The notes under the pieces are model-generated. The model was given only the letters and a program-made list of their open reading frames with translations, was not told the DNA's origin and did no database searches. From an uncultured Lachnospiraceae bacterium (GTDB lineage: Bacteria > Bacillota > Clostridia > Lachnospirales > Lachnospiraceae): DNA of 64,000 nt. Shown piece by piece: positions 8,802-57,989 of the stretch. The stretch spans positions 1-64,000 of the forward strand of contig CANPTH010000008.1 in the NCBI GenBank assembly GCA_947576945.1, given 5' to 3'. How positions within the stretch are numbered: position 1 is the stretch's first letter; each line of letters begins with the position of its first letter. The position numbers were made by a program, and so were the translations under genes.

Positions 8802-8836
8802 ATCATATCACTTCCTTTTCCTGTACTGCAATTTTT

Positions 8837-9031
8837 CCACCTGTGCGGTTGCAATCCAATGACCAGTCTGCATGCCATTTATGGCAATGCAGGCAAGGCA
8901 TTGGATTAGCAACCCACTTCCAAATGAGCAAAATGCGGATGCGCAAGCAGACGCAAAAGCGCGTAAGCGCGGGTTTTGTGAATGTGGAAGTCGGGTTGGA
9001 TGCTCCTTGGAGCGTCCAACCGCACAGGTGG
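8837..9031. repeat. MITE-like 195-bp structured element, copy A
   Basis: Ends CCACCTGTGCGGTTG ... CAACCGCACAGGTGG; near-identical inverted copy at 13060-13254. Confidence 0.9.
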
Positions 9032-9225
9032 CAATTTTTGTATAATATATTGATACACATATAGTGATTTTATTATAATGCACAAGTTTGGATGTGTCAA
9101 ATGTAAAATACCTAAAAATAATCAAATTGTCAAAGGCGTTTAGAAAGTTTGTTTCTATTTTGGGCAATATTTTTTGCAAATGTAAAAATTAAGGGAAAAA
9201 TATTGTACAAATAACATATTATTGG

Positions 9226-13044: not shown

Positions 13045-13059
13045 TATGATAAAATTTTT

Positions 13060-13254
13060 CCACCTGTGCGGTTGGACGCTCCAAGGAGCATCCAACCCGA
13101 CTTCCACATTCACAAAACCCGCGCTTACGCGCTTTTGCGTCTGCTTGCGCATCCGTATTTTGCTCATTTGGAAGTGGGTTGCTAATCCAATGCCTTGCCT
13201 GCATTGCAATAAATGGCATGCAGACTGGTCATTGGATTGCAACCGCACAGGTGG
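13060..13254. repeat. MITE-like 195-bp structured element, copy B (inverted relative to copy A)
   Basis: Same 195-bp core as reverse complement of 8837-9031, about two substitutions by eye. Confidence 0.9.
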
Positions 13255-13347
13255 AAATTTTTTTATCTGTAACGGTTCGGCTCGGGACTTTGCTTTGGCA
13301 AAATCCGCGAGAACATGCAAGTATAAGGAAAGGGTAGGGTAGTGATA

Positions 13348-15048: not shown

Positions 15049-15131
15049 TAGTAAACTTACATCATGCTCAGCCTGCCGTCGGGCGGGCCGCATGGCCATC
15101 CATGCTATGAAAGTCGAAGACTTTCATAGTA
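15049..15131. repeat. Dispersed ~83-bp hairpin repeat, copy 1
   Basis: TAGTAAACTTACATCATGCTCAGCCTGCCGTCGGGCGGGCCGCATGGCCATCCATGCTATGAAAGTCGAAGACTTTCATAGTAA; also at 57906-57989. Confidence 0.85.
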
Positions 15132-20233: not shown

Positions 20234-20481
20234 ATAATGAAGCAGGTTTGACTTTCGTATTGAAAGATATGACAAAACTTTATCGATTTCTATGTAAATA
20301 ATCAGAAGCCAGTAGAGTTTCTTGTCTGAAAAGATATTTGAAACGTAAAGTAAAAATTGCGTTTTGTGGAATAAATATAGAAATAAATGGATAAAAATAA
20401 AACAATACGAAAAGAAATATTGCGTTATAAAGGAAAAGATGATATGGTATGAATACACTACAAAAGGAAAGGTGCTACGGT

Positions 20482-21771
20482 ATGAAAATTCAGGCGGTTT
20501 TGATTGATGGATTCAAAAATCTGTCAAATGTTAAAATTGGTTTCGATAACATTACAGCTTTAGTGGCGTTAAACAATTTTGGCAAATCGAATGTACTTGC
20601 TGCTATCGATTTTGGTTTGACATTTATGAAAGCTACAATGGAAGATAAAGCTGATATGATGGCTAATTCGAATTTAATACCAATGAACAGCTATATGGTT
20701 AACAGAAATTACAAATTTCAAATGGAGATTTTAACTGAACTGGATGATATTGAATATCGTGTACTTTATGGATATGAATTTGCCTGGAAGTGTGATGAGA
20801 GTATCGAACCATATATTGTGTCCGAATATTTGAAGATCAGGCCGGAAGACAGGGGGCAGAAATATACTCAGCTGATCAATAGAGAGGGGCAGACAGCATT
20901 ATATAAAAGTTCTGAAACGGGCAGATGCTCATCCCAAATAAATGTTGAATCAGCGGAACTTGTTGTAAATAAGCTCCGAGCATACGATGAACTGTTTTAT
21001 GCTGTAATTATTAAAAAAATGAATAGTATGAGATTCTATATGGAGAATAATCTGGATGCAAAAAGTTTTTATCAGCCAGATCCATTTATTCGCAAAGGCT
21101 TAGAAGACATGGCTGTCGATGCAGAAAGCCTTCCACGTGTAATATATCAATTACAGGAGAAAAATCCGGATAAATTTGCCTTGTTGAAAGAAGTATATAA
21201 AAATTTATTTCCTGATGTTGAGGACATTGTTGTTAAGCAATACAAGTTTAATGGTGGAGACAATGATAGATTACCTGCCGATTCTCCGTTTGTAATAGCA
21301 AATGCCATATACGTCTTATTTGTGAAAGATAAGAATTTAATATACCCCATTGATTTTGCGATGATGTCAGATGGTGCAAAAAGAGTGTTTATGATTCTGG
21401 CGAGGATCATATTGGCCAATGAAGGAAATATTTCTCTGATTGCAATCGAAGAACCGGAGAATTCGGTGCATCCAAGTTTGTTTCGGGCTTATGTGCAAAT
21501 AATCAGTCAGTTGTTGGATGATTGTAAGATAATTGTAACCAGTCACTCGCCTTACGTTGTGAGTTATTTTGAGCCTTCATGGATACATGTAGGCATAAAC
21601 AGACAACCGGGGGTCGCTGGGTTTTATAAATTCAAAAAATCGGGTCAGCGATTATTACAACAGGATGCTGCGGATTTTAAGATGAGTATAGGAGATTACC
21701 TGTTTTCGATGCTGGCGGATGATGAATGTGATTGGGAAGACTATCTGGAGTGTGATATAATACATGAGTAA
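20482..21771 (+). CDS. OLD/ABC-like AAA ATPase (candidate defence ATPase)
   Basis: ATG 20482 (MKIQAVLIDGFKNLSNVKIGF); Walker A-like NNFGKSNVL; SDGAKRVFMILAR; IAIEEPENSVHPSL; VTSHSPYVV. Confidence 0.88.
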   Translation: MKIQAVLIDGFKNLSNVKIGFDNITALVALNNFGKSNVLAAIDFGLTFMKATMEDKADMMANSNLIPMNSYMVNRNYKFQMEILTELDDIEYRVLYGYEFAWKCDESIEPYIVSEYLKIRPEDRGQKYTQLINREGQTALYKSSETGRCSSQINVESAELVVNKLRAYDELFYAVIIKKMNSMRFYMENNLDAKSFYQPDPFIRKGLEDMAVDAESLPRVIYQLQEKNPDKFALLKEVYKNLFPDVEDIVVKQYKFNGGDNDRLPADSPFVIANAIYVLFVKDKNLIYPIDFAMMSDGAKRVFMILARIILANEGNISLIAIEEPENSVHPSLFRAYVQIISQLLDDCKIIVTSHSPYVVSYFEPSWIHVGINRQPGVAGFYKFKKSGQRLLQQDAADFKMSIGDYLFSMLADDECDWEDYLECDIIHE

Positions 21772-22348
21772 ATGCCTTGTACTATTTGTTGAGGGAGATA
21801 CAGAAGTTGAGTTTTATAAACGTGTAATATCAAATGCCAGGCAGAAGAGGGCAGATGGAAGATTTGATATTAACATTGAATGTAAAAACGTCAAAGGTGT
21901 CGGAGGATTTAAAAATATTGCTCTACGTAAGTTTATAAAGGAAATAAAGCCCAAATATGGAGAGGAATGTGAGTTTAATGTCGCTTTATGTAGAGACACA
22001 GATGTTTTTGAACTCTCTCCTAAACCTCCGATAAATTGGAATGAAGTGGAAGCTGCTTTTAAGGAGAATGGAGTCCGAAACGTTATCCACATAAGAGCGG
22101 AACGTTCTATTGAAGACTGGTTTTTACTTGATGTGGACGGAATAATATCATTTCTTCATTTGTCAAGGAAAACGAAAGTATCCGGAGGCAATGGATATGA
22201 TAAATTGAAAAAACTTTTTAAACAGGCAAACAAGATGTATTATAAGGGAATGAAAAGTAATGGTATGGTTGAACGACTGGATATTGATAGAATAGTGCAG
22301 AGCGTTTATATGCAGTTAGAACCTTTATACAAGGTGCTGGGAATATAA
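21764..22348 (+). CDS. TOPRIM-like protein partnered with the preceding ATPase
   Basis: CLVLFVEGDTEVEFYKRVI (acidic TOPRIM-like motif), CRDTDVF, RAERSIEDWFLLD; start overlaps ATPase stop by 8 nt. Confidence 0.65.
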   Translation: MSKCLVLFVEGDTEVEFYKRVISNARQKRADGRFDINIECKNVKGVGGFKNIALRKFIKEIKPKYGEECEFNVALCRDTDVFELSPKPPINWNEVEAAFKENGVRNVIHIRAERSIEDWFLLDVDGIISFLHLSRKTKVSGGNGYDKLKKLFKQANKMYYKGMKSNGMVERLDIDRIVQSVYMQLEPLYKVLGI

Positions 22349-22560: not shown

Positions 22561-23145
22561 ATGATTACAAGGGTAAAACTTCAAAGGTTTAAGAAATTTA
22601 ATGATAACGAGGTAATATTAAAGCCTTTTTCTGTCTTAATGGGGGAAAATAACATAAGCAAAGATGATTTATTTAGAAGTCATGGAGACACAGGATATTT
22701 TACCAGAAATACAAAGGACATTAAAAAGTCTACAATCTGATATGTTGCAGAAAGAAAATGTTAGTGAATTAGAAGAATATAAAGATGAGCTTGAAGGATT
22801 AGAATTTATTATGGATGAAGATACCCTCAGTGAACAAAGGTACACACGGTCGGTAAAGAATCAATTTCATCCCCTGCTGCGTTGCTTTCATTCCGTGTAC
22901 GTCCAGTACACGTCAATCAAGCGCCTTGCAGGGATTGAAATTGCCTTCTTTCCGACTCTTCGACCCTGACCATGGATATTTGAGTGATTTCCAAGGCGGA
23001 CGATTGAGGCGTACCGGACGTACGCCGATTGAGGACAACGCAGAAAACCGCTCAAATATCATGGTTCAGGGCGTGTATTCCTTTGTTCACTGAGGGTAAT
23101 GTTTTAGATGAAATATTACAATTGTCATTGCCACTTGGAAAATAA
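22561..23145 (+). pseudogene. Decayed ATPase-like gene, frameshifted and interrupted by a TA-flanked element
   Basis: MITRVKLQRFKKFNDNEVILKPFSVLMGENNISK (ATPase N-terminus with broken Walker A); second frame MIYLEVMETQ...EGLEFIMDED resumes after 23098 as NVLDEILQLSLPLGK*. Confidence 0.7.
22822..23098. mobile_element. ~277-bp MITE with terminal inverted repeats and TA flanks
   Basis: TA-CCCTCAGTGAACAAAGG ... CCTTTGTTCACTGAGGG-TA; no transposase ORF; two internal hairpins. Confidence 0.85.
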
Positions 23146-43207: not shown

Positions 43208-43266
43208 GAGACTTTCACAGCATGGATGGCCATGCGGCAGGTTGCGCATGATGGTGGTTTACTATA
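43208..43266. repeat. Dispersed hairpin repeat, degenerate inverted copy 3
   Basis: Reverse complement TATAGTAAACCACCATCATGCGCAACCTGCCGCATGGCCATCCATGCTGTGAAAGTC matches 15049-15131 family. Confidence 0.65.
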
Positions 43267-47238: not shown

Positions 47239-48492
47239 GTGGGACAGGTGCAGAGCAGACGACAGCAGGAGATTGAACTTTGGGAATTGTACCAGGGAGA
47301 AGGCAGGGGCGCTGAGAGAGGCAGGCACAAGCGAAATGCCGGCAGAGGCAGCCGGAACGGTGAATATGGAGGATCCGGGCGGAAAGCAGAGGCCGATAGA
47401 AACGACAGAAGGGCAAGCCAGAGAAGGGAAGCGGCCGGAAGCGGCAGAGAGGCAGGCCGGAGAAGGGAAGCAGCCGGAAGCGGCAGAGAGGCAGGCCGGA
47501 GAAGGGAAGCAGCCGGAAGCGGCCGGAGGCGGTCCGGAGAGAGCGGAAGGCGGGCGCAGACCGGAGAAGGCGGCAGCATAAGGTTGTATGAGATGGAGCG
47601 GAACGGATCGAAGCCAGGCAGCCGGACAGTCAGAACTGTGGACAGACACGCGGCCGGTACTATGCGGCAGTCTGGAAATGCCGCCAGAGCACAGCGTATG
47701 GGCCGGGCAAAAGATGTCTCCGGGATCAGTTATATTGGGGCTTCTCCGTATCGGGGCAATGCCCGTCCGGTACAGTCCATTAAGCGGCGGCGGGCACGGC
47801 GCAGAAGAGAGATTCTGAGTAAGTTAGTGATCGCTGTGCTTATGGTGACGTGTCTTGTTATGATTTATTATATAACCGGCGGGATCTACCGGATGACGCA
47901 CAAGAATAAAGAAGAAAAGCCGCTTCCCGTAACAGCGGAGCAGGCCTTCATTGATGACAGCAGCGATACCGGGATATCTCCGCCTGAAGTGATACAGGAT
48001 TTACTGGAAATTAATGAGTATTCCAGGCCGGGAGACAAGATGGGCAGGATCAGCAATATATTTGTCCACTATACGGCTAACCCTGGTACTTCAGCTGCGC
48101 AGAACAGAAGTTATTTTGCAAATCTGGCTGAGACACATGAACGGTCAGCCAGTGCGCACCTGATCATCGGTTATGACGGGGAGCTGATACAATGTATTCC
48201 CTTTGACGAACAGGCTTATGCAGTGATGACGAGGAATGAAGATTCCATATCGATCGAGTGCTGTTACCTGTCTGACGACGGCTCTTTTACTCAGGAAACA
48301 TATGATACATTGATACATACACTGGCATGGCTGGTGGACAAATTTGATCTGTCTGCAGAAGATATCTTAAGACATTATGACTGCGGCGGGAAGCTTTGTC
48401 CCCTGTATTATGCGGAAAATGAAAGTGCGTGGAACCAGCTGCGGCAGGATGTAGAGGCATATCTGGAACAGGCGAGGCAGGAGAAAGCATAA
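47239..48492 (+). CDS. N-acetylmuramoyl-L-alanine amidase (PGRP/Amidase_2-like) with Arg-rich repetitive cytoplasmic N-terminus
   Basis: TM segment LVIAVLMVTCLVMIYYITGG; IFVHYTANPGTSAAQNRSYF, SAHLIIGYDGELIQCIP, DILRHYDCGGKLCP. Confidence 0.88.
   Translation: MGQVQSRRQQEIELWELYQGEGRGAERGRHKRNAGRGSRNGEYGGSGRKAEADRNDRRASQRREAAGSGREAGRRREAAGSGREAGRRREAAGSGRRRSGESGRRAQTGEGGSIRLYEMERNGSKPGSRTVRTVDRHAAGTMRQSGNAARAQRMGRAKDVSGISYIGASPYRGNARPVQSIKRRRARRRREILSKLVIAVLMVTCLVMIYYITGGIYRMTHKNKEEKPLPVTAEQAFIDDSSDTGISPPEVIQDLLEINEYSRPGDKMGRISNIFVHYTANPGTSAAQNRSYFANLAETHERSASAHLIIGYDGELIQCIPFDEQAYAVMTRNEDSISIECCYLSDDGSFTQETYDTLIHTLAWLVDKFDLSAEDILRHYDCGGKLCPLYYAENESAWNQLRQDVEAYLEQARQEKA
47425..47545 (+). repeat. 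39-bp tandem repeat x~3 in amidase N-terminus
   Basis: REAAGSGREAGRR units; DNA GGAAGC(A/G)GCCGGAAGCGGCAGAGAGGCAGGCCGGAGAA. Confidence 0.85.
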
Positions 48493-50803: not shown

Positions 50804-51083
50804 TATTCACGAAAAAGGCAGATCGCATTTGTGCGGCGAAACCTTTGCAACATTTTGACAGGTTTGTGTAACAATGAGATATTTAAGTTATGCCGGCTTT
50901 TTTATATGATAACAATACCTTCAATTAACAAAGACATATATACTTTAAAGCGGGATAATTTCAGTATTTTCCTGTTCACTGAGGGTATAGTAAACGACAT
51001 AACATATTTGCAGTAGTTGAGAACAGTGGAAGCCGAAGACGGGAAGACTGTGGGACAGTGAATAAGAGAAGGAGGACATCTGA

Positions 51084-52247: not shown

Positions 52248-52341
52248 AGTGCAGAGCAGTGACAGCAAGGTTATTGTTCACTGAGGGTAAGCAGATTTCA
52301 AATAGAGTGACTGAGAACAGTGCGCAGAAACGAGGAGAGCT

Positions 52342-56341: not shown

Positions 56342-57910
56342 ATGAAAAAATGGTCTGTGGCATTGGCGGTGACAATGACAGTAATGTATACTGCTGCCAT
56401 GCCGGTGCATGCCAAAGGGGATAAAATCGAATCAGGTATTTATGTCAATGACATAAATCTGGCTGGTATGACTGTTGATGAGGCCAGACAGGCGATAGAA
56501 TCTTATGTGGAATCTTATGGGGATGCGCAGATCACTCTGCATGCCGTTGATGAGGGGACGATTGTTACGACGGCAGCCGAACTGGGACTGAAGTGGGGCA
56601 ATGAAGAGATCCTGGAGGAGGCGGCCAGATTCGGACGGGATGGTGACATATTACAATGTTATAAGGAATTGAAGGATTTAGAATACCAGAACAGGATATA
56701 TGAAGTCGGCTTTGATTTTGATAAGAATAAGATCAGGACTCTCATCGAAGAAAATGCCGAACAGTATGATCAGGAGGCGGTGAATGCGTCTCTGACTAAA
56801 ACAGAGACCGGTTTTCAGGTTACGGAGGGACAGCCGGGTATTATAGTTGATACAACGGCGTCCACGGATGCGGTCTACGAATATCTGCTCAGTGAGTGGA
56901 ACGGTGCAGCGTGTGACATTGATCTGGCAGTTACGGTGGCTGAACCGATGGGGACTGCGGAAGAGCTGTCGAAGGTAAAAGATGTGCTCGGTACCTTTAC
57001 CACCAGCTACTCATCTTCCGGCGGAGCCAGGAGTGCGAATGTGACAAATGGCTGTACCCTGATCAACGGGACTACTTTATATCCGGGAGAAGAATTTTCG
57101 TGCTATGAGGCGGTGGCTCCCTTTTCGGAGGCGAACGGGTACTATATGGCGGCATCGTATCTGAGCGGCCAGGTGGTAGACAGTCTGGGCGGCGGCATCT
57201 GTCAGGTGTCCACTACCTTATATAATGCGGTTCTGCTGTCTGAACTGGAGGTGACGGAGCGGTACAATCATTCGATGATCGTTACCTACGTGGATCCTTC
57301 TGCCGACGCGGCGATCGCAGAGTCTTCAGGTAAGGATTTTAAATTTAAAAATAATACGGATCATCCTGTTTATATAGAGGGAATTACGACGCCGGATAAG
57401 CAGATCACTTTTACGATCTATGGCGTGGAGACGAGGGCCAGCGGCCGTGAAGTGGTGTATGAGAGCGTTGTTCTGGAAAGAATCCCTCCGGATACAGAGG
57501 TAATCTACACAGATGCATCCCGCCCTGTGGGCTACTGTTCCGTACAGTCGGCACATATTGGATACAGAGCGCAGCTGTGGAAGGTAGTGCGTGAGAACGG
57601 TGTGGAAGTGAGCAGAGAGCAGGTCAACAGCAGTTCTTATATGAAGGCGCCGAGAAGCGCGACGGTGGGGATCGCCACCGAGGACGAAGGGGCGTATAAT
57701 GCCATTATGGCAGCGGTGGCCACTAACAGCATTGATCAGGTAAAGGCAGTGGCGGGAGCCTATAAGGCGGCAGCCGATGCCGCGGCGGCGGAAGCTGCTG
57801 CAGCAGAGGGACAGGGACAGCCGCCCGCTCCGGCAGATGCGGGAGCGCCGCCCCCGGCGGAAGGGCAGGCACAGCCGCCTCAGCCGCAGGAAGGGGCGCC
57901 TGCACAGTAA
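56342..57910 (+). CDS. VanW-family protein with Pro/Gln/Ala-rich C-terminus
   Basis: Signal peptide; FSCYEAVAPFSEANGYYMAASYLSGQVVDSLGGGICQVSTTLYNAVLLSELEVTERYNHSM. Confidence 0.92.
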   Translation: MKKWSVALAVTMTVMYTAAMPVHAKGDKIESGIYVNDINLAGMTVDEARQAIESYVESYGDAQITLHAVDEGTIVTTAAELGLKWGNEEILEEAARFGRDGDILQCYKELKDLEYQNRIYEVGFDFDKNKIRTLIEENAEQYDQEAVNASLTKTETGFQVTEGQPGIIVDTTASTDAVYEYLLSEWNGAACDIDLAVTVAEPMGTAEELSKVKDVLGTFTTSYSSSGGARSANVTNGCTLINGTTLYPGEEFSCYEAVAPFSEANGYYMAASYLSGQVVDSLGGGICQVSTTLYNAVLLSELEVTERYNHSMIVTYVDPSADAAIAESSGKDFKFKNNTDHPVYIEGITTPDKQITFTIYGVETRASGREVVYESVVLERIPPDTEVIYTDASRPVGYCSVQSAHIGYRAQLWKVVRENGVEVSREQVNSSSYMKAPRSATVGIATEDEGAYNAIMAAVATNSIDQVKAVAGAYKAAADAAAAEAAAAEGQGQPPAPADAGAPPPAEGQAQPPQPQEGAPAQ

Positions 57911-57989
57911 ACTTACATCATGCTTAGCCTGCCGTCGGGCGGGCCGCATGGCCATCCAAGCTGTGAAAGTCGAAGACTTTCATAGTAGA
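57906..57989. repeat. Dispersed hairpin repeat, copy 4; supplies stop codon of VanW gene
   Basis: AGTAAACTTACATCATGCTTAGCCTGCCGTCGGGCGGGCCGCATGGCCATCCAAGCTGTGAAAGTCGAAGACTTTCATAGTAG. Confidence 0.85.

Follow-up and report, generated by a model that had tools for sequence, protein, structure and literature searches.

The 64,000-nucleotide stretch of an uncultured Lachnospiraceae genome analysed in this study (the window) carries a 273-bp MITE whose interior is formed by two inverted copies of one conserved hairpin. The most probable reading, to which we assign a probability of about 0.65, is a non-autonomous MITE that depends on a TA-specific transposase acting in trans, for which the IS630/Tc1-mariner group is the most likely source, and that carries a retained cis-acting hairpin core. 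The family is mobile and duplicates TA, it has amplified recently, its twin-hairpin structure is conserved, and its core is common to several end types. MITEs are an already known class of element, and the novelty lies in the modular build with a conserved hairpin core.

Structurally, the element occupies positions 22824-23096, or 22822-23098 (277 bp) when the TA dinucleotides on its left (22822-22823) and right (23097-23098) are included, and the longer span reads TA CCCTCAGTGAACAAAGG ... CCTTTGTTCACTGAGGG TA. Its termini are inverted repeats complementary at 17 of 17 positions. The left repeat, CCCTCAGTGAACAAAGG, lies on the forward strand at 22824-22840 (22822-22840 with its TA), and the exact reverse complement is located at 23080-23096 on the reverse strand (23080-23098 with its TA). 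With up to three mismatches, this 17-mer end has three matches in the 64-kb window compared to 0.14 expected. Inside the repeats, a closing arm at 22844-22848 pairs with a second arm at 23072-23076. Hairpin A follows at 22849-22956 on the forward strand and consists of a variable, covarying stem and a conserved core (22874-22931), whereas hairpin B (22964-23071, core at 22989-23046) is inverted relative to A and thus lies on the reverse strand. The hairpin tips are CGTGTACGTCCAGTACACG at 22894-22912 and GGCGTACCGGACGTACGCC at 23008-23026. As a single strand, the element has a predicted folding energy of −79 kcal/mol versus −33.9 kcal/mol in shuffled sequences (z = −13.0). A preliminary description of this DNA had proposed a TA-bounded insert of about 277 bp that forms two long hairpins, and the length and the tips it gave proved correct. 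The 273 bp contain no transposase gene, and the internal ORFs are short.

The genome contains 11 full-length copies of the element, the window copy among them, and many truncated ones. Ten of the 11 are identical over 275 bp and the eleventh has a single difference. The 15-mer end TACCCTCAGTGAACA is present at 93 genome sites with at most one mismatch, compared to one site for a reversed control. Direct reading of the ten identical copies revealed flanks that are unrelated outside the TA and a TA on both sides, and the eleventh copy is likewise flanked by TA. To search for empty sites, the flanks of eight copies were joined with one TA kept and compared with 78 congeneric genomes. Three of the eight yielded a clean empty site with a single TA: copy L004 (G009:C43, 98% identity over 441 bp, ...CTCCATAGATATGATTTCC...), copy L002 (G009:C202, ...TTATGTAAAGATAATTTCC...), and copy L005 (G506:C1, 87% identity). 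In G009, another contig (C152) breaks off 53 bp inside the element. These sites demonstrate insertion with a 2-bp TA duplication for the MITE family, and the dinucleotides that border the window copy are accordingly annotated as copies of the target. The family is therefore real, recently active, and TA-duplicating. Furthermore, the ten identical copies are suggestive of recent amplification and of movement that is recent or perhaps ongoing. The preliminary description had called the insert a TA-flanked MITE and expected other copies with the same ends, and both points are upheld by the 11 full-length copies, the approximately 90 end sequences in the genome, the TA at all full-length ends, and the three empty sites. 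No copy of the element was found in phage or plasmid records, and an exact text search of papers for the end and tip sequences returned no matches.

The insertion lies in a short ORF whose 5′ part spans 22664-22822 on the forward strand. Joining the flanks with one TA retained produces GAA GAT AAT GTT ... AAA TAA, which encodes EDNVLDEILQLSLPLGK* and reaches the TAA stop 17 codons on. The preliminary description had stressed that excision restores a reading frame exactly. This is true of the letters but uninformative, since removal of any insert joins some frame and at least 17 open codons follow the joint in about 20% of shuffles of the local sequence (30% GC). Moreover, excision of the Tc1/mariner type, as described for ISY100, cuts two bases inside the 5′ ends (PMC2170065), so the exact frame would correspond to the state before insertion rather than to the expected excision product.

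We therefore consider it very improbable that the MITE interrupted a functional gene at 22664 that excision would restore. Apart from the open joined frame, such a gene could claim only a weak PADLOC match to LmuA (E 0.0016), which appears solely when the joined tail is present and is not relied on here. The left part of the ORF has no homologue in the genus genomes, and the joined ORF has no matches in phages or plasmids beyond chance similarity of composition. Apparent homologues of the 68-amino-acid joined ORF in 397 family genomes were rejected as chance alignments to long coiled-coil ORFs and to an MnmE-like GTPase. The surrounding locus is defence-like. Upstream, at 20449-22348, are adjacent AAA ATPase and DUF4276/TOPRIM-like genes that resemble HEC-01/AriA-type anti-phage pairs (PADLOC). 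Immediately upstream of the MITE, positions 22561-22740 hold what looks by eye like the cut-off beginning of another AAA ATPase-like gene (MITRVKLQRFKKFNDNEVILKPFSVLMGEN...), which has no Pfam match. This fragment suggests a deletion at the locus and places the MITE in a stretch that was already decayed, which further argues against interruption of a functional gene. No empty allele of the window copy, which the preliminary description had proposed to look for, was found in the 78 congeneric genomes.

The interior of the element is conserved well beyond this genome. A search for the end in 397 family genomes gave matches in ten, including the source genome, and two genomes (G155 and G476) contain homologues of the element of 277 and 275 bp, respectively. 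In the three-way alignment, both sides have changed in 20 of 102 base pairs. A scan of a species-genome collection with the end pattern, from which A at the variable base was excluded to keep out the source genome, recovered 77 loci, mostly in Lachnospiraceae and some in Oscillospiraceae such as Dysosmobacter. Eighteen double-hairpin elements can be aligned with few gaps, and they retain both the length and the two hairpins. When the structure of the window copy is imposed on this alignment, 90.1% of cells are paired (100% in helix 3, the inner closing arms), and both sides have changed in 43 of 102 pairs. Covariation reaches 0.334, compared to 0.153 in shuffles and at most 0.127 when partners are slid. 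Terminal-repeat covariation was set aside when pairing was assessed, because a single protein that reads both ends would in any case require them to match. In these 18 elements, the outer stems drift, but the GCGT/CCTT mismatches, the loop, and the TC and C bulges hardly vary. The preliminary description had recognized the two hairpins but missed that they form a conserved module. No Rfam family matches at its gathering score, and the sole loose match is to an unrelated miRNA model.

A covariance model (R1) was made of the approximately 58-nucleotide hairpin core. The ten-sequence core count and the three-sequence element count agree. R1 finds exactly two sites in the window, which are the cores of hairpin A (81.3 bits, E 2.8e-21) and hairpin B (78.8 bits, E 1.5e-20). 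Their starts are offset by 115 bp, and in a scan of 120 family genomes this offset is common to the source genome (G000) and four others (G155, G126, G101, and G223). Twenty of the 120 genomes have R1 matches. Other matches are located in elements with quite different ends, namely CTAGTACAGCG..., CTAGTGCACTGACACG..., and GGAACTGTCC... (L072, L075, and L077). The CTAGTACAGCG and CTAGTGCACTGACACG types are flanked by TA, which is a less clean fit for the GGAACTGTCC type. A diverged core that can still be recognized is present in Dysosmobacter, with scores of 24-37 bits.

The number of hairpins also tracks element size. The lengths of distinct elements fall into classes of 42-56 bp (both ends and no hairpin), 144-160 bp (one hairpin), and 267-279 bp (two hairpins), with few elements between. 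We tentatively propose, at less than even odds, that the asymmetric hairpin of about 58 nucleotides is a transferable cis-acting MITE module recognized by a transposase or host factor. It would be combined with at least three unrelated TA-flanked end sets in Lachnospiraceae and, as a diverged version, in Oscillospiraceae, and the number of copies per element (zero, one, or two) would set the size classes.

An unlikely alternative is that the hairpins are functionless palindromes created by inverted duplication and kept paired by replication template switching, which imitates compensatory change. Hairpins with apparent compensatory substitutions are reported to arise and be maintained through template switching, so that paired changes can appear without selection (PMC8794818). 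One locus of the source genome (L012 1135-1310, in G000:C102) carries an apparent event of this kind, in which the right arm has changed from GTCAATCAAGCG to GGAATGAAAGCG and the core has become a perfect palindrome, the product expected of a template switch. In addition, the many copies reduced to 42-56 bp indicate that hairpins are not needed for persistence. However, template-switch repair should erase precisely those GCGT versus CCTT mismatches and TC/C bulges that, with the loop, are nearly invariant in the 18 elements, and the fact that they persist would point to selection on the core. The same asymmetric core is also present in MITEs that are otherwise unrelated in sequence, and total length and the 115-bp core offset are held in the five genomes of the 120-genome scan.

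Our preferred mechanism is one in which a cut-and-paste transposase specific for TA, and in all likelihood a member of the IS630/Tc1-mariner group, would recognize the CCCTCAGTGNACAARGG ends in trans and duplicate the TA. Between the ends lie the two copies of the conserved asymmetric hairpin in opposite orientation. Owing to this inversion, each strand, whether as transcript or as single-stranded DNA, would present one core in the same sense. The core itself would be a retained cis-acting module and not leftover transposase sequence, given that its mismatches, loop, and spacing are kept while the stems drift with compensation, and that differently ended MITEs carry it as well. What the core does is something we infer, whether a transposase or a host protein recognizes it or it has a role at the RNA level. 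Judged from sequence comparison, a cis-acting mobility module appears to be the best reading, with RNA-level roles and mutational upkeep as its rivals.

With respect to RNA, the element might act mainly after transcription in the manner of the Correia/NEMIS repeats, such that hairpins in read-through transcripts are processed or terminate transcription, alter the expression of nearby genes, and are kept for that reason. Most copies are intergenic, the covariation is as consistent with pairing in RNA as with pairing in DNA, and NEMIS transcripts have been proposed as RNase III substrates (PMC2229807). Nevertheless, we regard this possibility as slimmer than that of template switching, in view of the lack of an Rfam match at gathering score. 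In addition, the inversion of the two cores and the presence of insertions in either orientation fit a strand-independent DNA role equally well.

Candidate transposases were sought through the ends of the element. None of the 77 public species-genome loci and none of the loci examined in the source genome has a transposase gene between CCCTCAGTG ends, so the full-length transposon with the same terminal repeat that the preliminary description had proposed to seek did not emerge. Two candidates were rejected. In L204, the one pair of ends approximately 1 kb apart is not a transposon but brackets a gene that by eye is aroE, with a truncated MITE beside it. In L013, a MITE end seemingly joined to a transposase is truncated by what its translation, judged by eye, indicates to be an OrfA-like fragment of the IS3 type. 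The DDE_3 domain (PF13358) is present in seven of 21 carrier genomes and absent from the source genome, a draft in 133 contigs from which multi-copy insertion sequences may be missing.

IS630 elements insert at TA and duplicate it (PMC2170065), and those in three of the genomes (G126, G510, and G515) have ends of type TAGTGTACTGACCTGTTGATATTTA. Core-carrying MITEs with TAGTG...CTGAC ends (L131, L127, and L146) match these IS630 ends at 22-23 of 30 positions, versus a mean of about 12 and a maximum of 18 in shuffles, which ties at least one core-carrying end type to IS630. The end of the window MITE matches the IS630 ends found at 12 of 30 positions at best, as in shuffles. A search of the IS630 loci with R1 detected no core, and thus the core is not a relic of those elements. 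The IS630/Tc1-mariner type named in the preliminary description therefore stands as plausible, given the TA duplication and the sibling hairpin MITEs with IS630-like ends, but not as something confirmed by a same-ended transposon or by DDE_3 in the genome. Since its ends are not shared with an autonomous IS630 element, we file the window element as a TA-duplicating MITE whose probable IS630 assignment draws on TA duplication and on kinship of the core.

A mobilizer that is not IS630-like, whether from another TA-duplicating family (e.g. the IS427 group of IS5) or of unknown class, seems to us improbable to the same degree as functionless hairpins. It would account for the absence of DDE_3 from the source genome and from 14 of the 21 carrier genomes searched, as well as for window MITE ends that are unlike the IS630 ends found. 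Weighing against it, TA duplication is a hallmark of IS630/Tc1-mariner elements, MITEs with the same hairpin core have IS630-matching ends, and a multi-copy insertion sequence can collapse out of a draft assembly.

Many members of the family are fragments. The source genome contains numerous solo ends and end pairs of 42-69 bp, and two solo TACCCTCAGTGAACA ends are located in the window on the reverse strand (50973-50987 and 52275-52289). Solo ends of 15-19 bp without a partner, which may be remnants or may have a regulatory role, are numerous in the source genome immediately before gene starts or downstream of gene ends (e.g. L036, L044, L046, L047, and L066). End-to-end palindromes of 42-56 bp that consist of the two terminal repeats only are common in several genomes (e.g. 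L108 1501-1543). In L019 and L020, deletions between short repeats inside a hairpin jump from CATTCCG to CTTTCCG, and the breaks in L015 and L204 are in the hairpin loop; such deletions and breaks would fit palindrome instability. The window also holds other repeats. A second palindromic repeat of about 206 bp with CCACCTGTGCGGTTG/CAACCGCACAGGTGG ends is present as two inverted copies that are 98% alike (8834-9039 and 13052-13257) and bracket an apparent sugar ABC-transporter operon. A dispersed repeat (AGTAAACTTACATCATGCTCAGCCTGCCGTCGGGCGGGCC...) has copies at 15050-15131 and 57906-57987 that are 96% identical and a partial inverted copy at 43210-43238, and a 39-bp repeat occurs in three tandem copies at 47399-47515.

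Several known systems share features with this element. The BOX elements of Streptococcus pneumoniae are modular repeats with a variable number of internal units, as is the window MITE, whose module differs in being an inverted hairpin pair within perfect inverted ends and whose copies are TA-flanked. The BOX family is named in PMC3049150. RUP, the repeat unit of pneumococcus, is a 107-bp element with ends proposed to be recognized by an IS630-family transposase, and it is similarly short, non-coding, present in many copies, and bounded by TA at both ends (PMC2229807). However, its partner IS630-Spn1 shares the RUP ends, whereas no same-ended partner was found for the window MITE, the interior of which is a conserved twin-hairpin module that steps between zero, one, and two copies. 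The Correia/NEMIS elements of Neisseria are also short and TA-flanked with inverted ends, have size classes of approximately 107 and 155 bp that differ by internal sequence, and give rise to transcripts that form stem-loops (PMC2229807). They belong to another phylum and have other ends and another sequence, and the window MITE differs further in its two inverted copies of one asymmetric core common to differently ended MITEs. Elements of the IS630/Tc1-mariner group such as ISY100, which moves by cut-and-paste and for which 24-bp inverted ends are the likely minimal requirement (PMC2170065), share the TA target and its duplication. In contrast, the window MITE encodes no transposase, and its ends are unlike those of the IS630 elements found here.

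The usual view of a bacterial MITE is of two transposon ends plus filler. In this family, only the ends are more constrained than the filler, in which mismatches, spacing, and length are all kept and which is common to MITEs whose ends are unrelated. Should the core be a cis-acting hairpin, this would explain why some elements that encode no protein amplify well, and it would provide a concrete candidate binding site. The series of elements with zero, one, and two hairpins constitutes a natural deletion set for the module.
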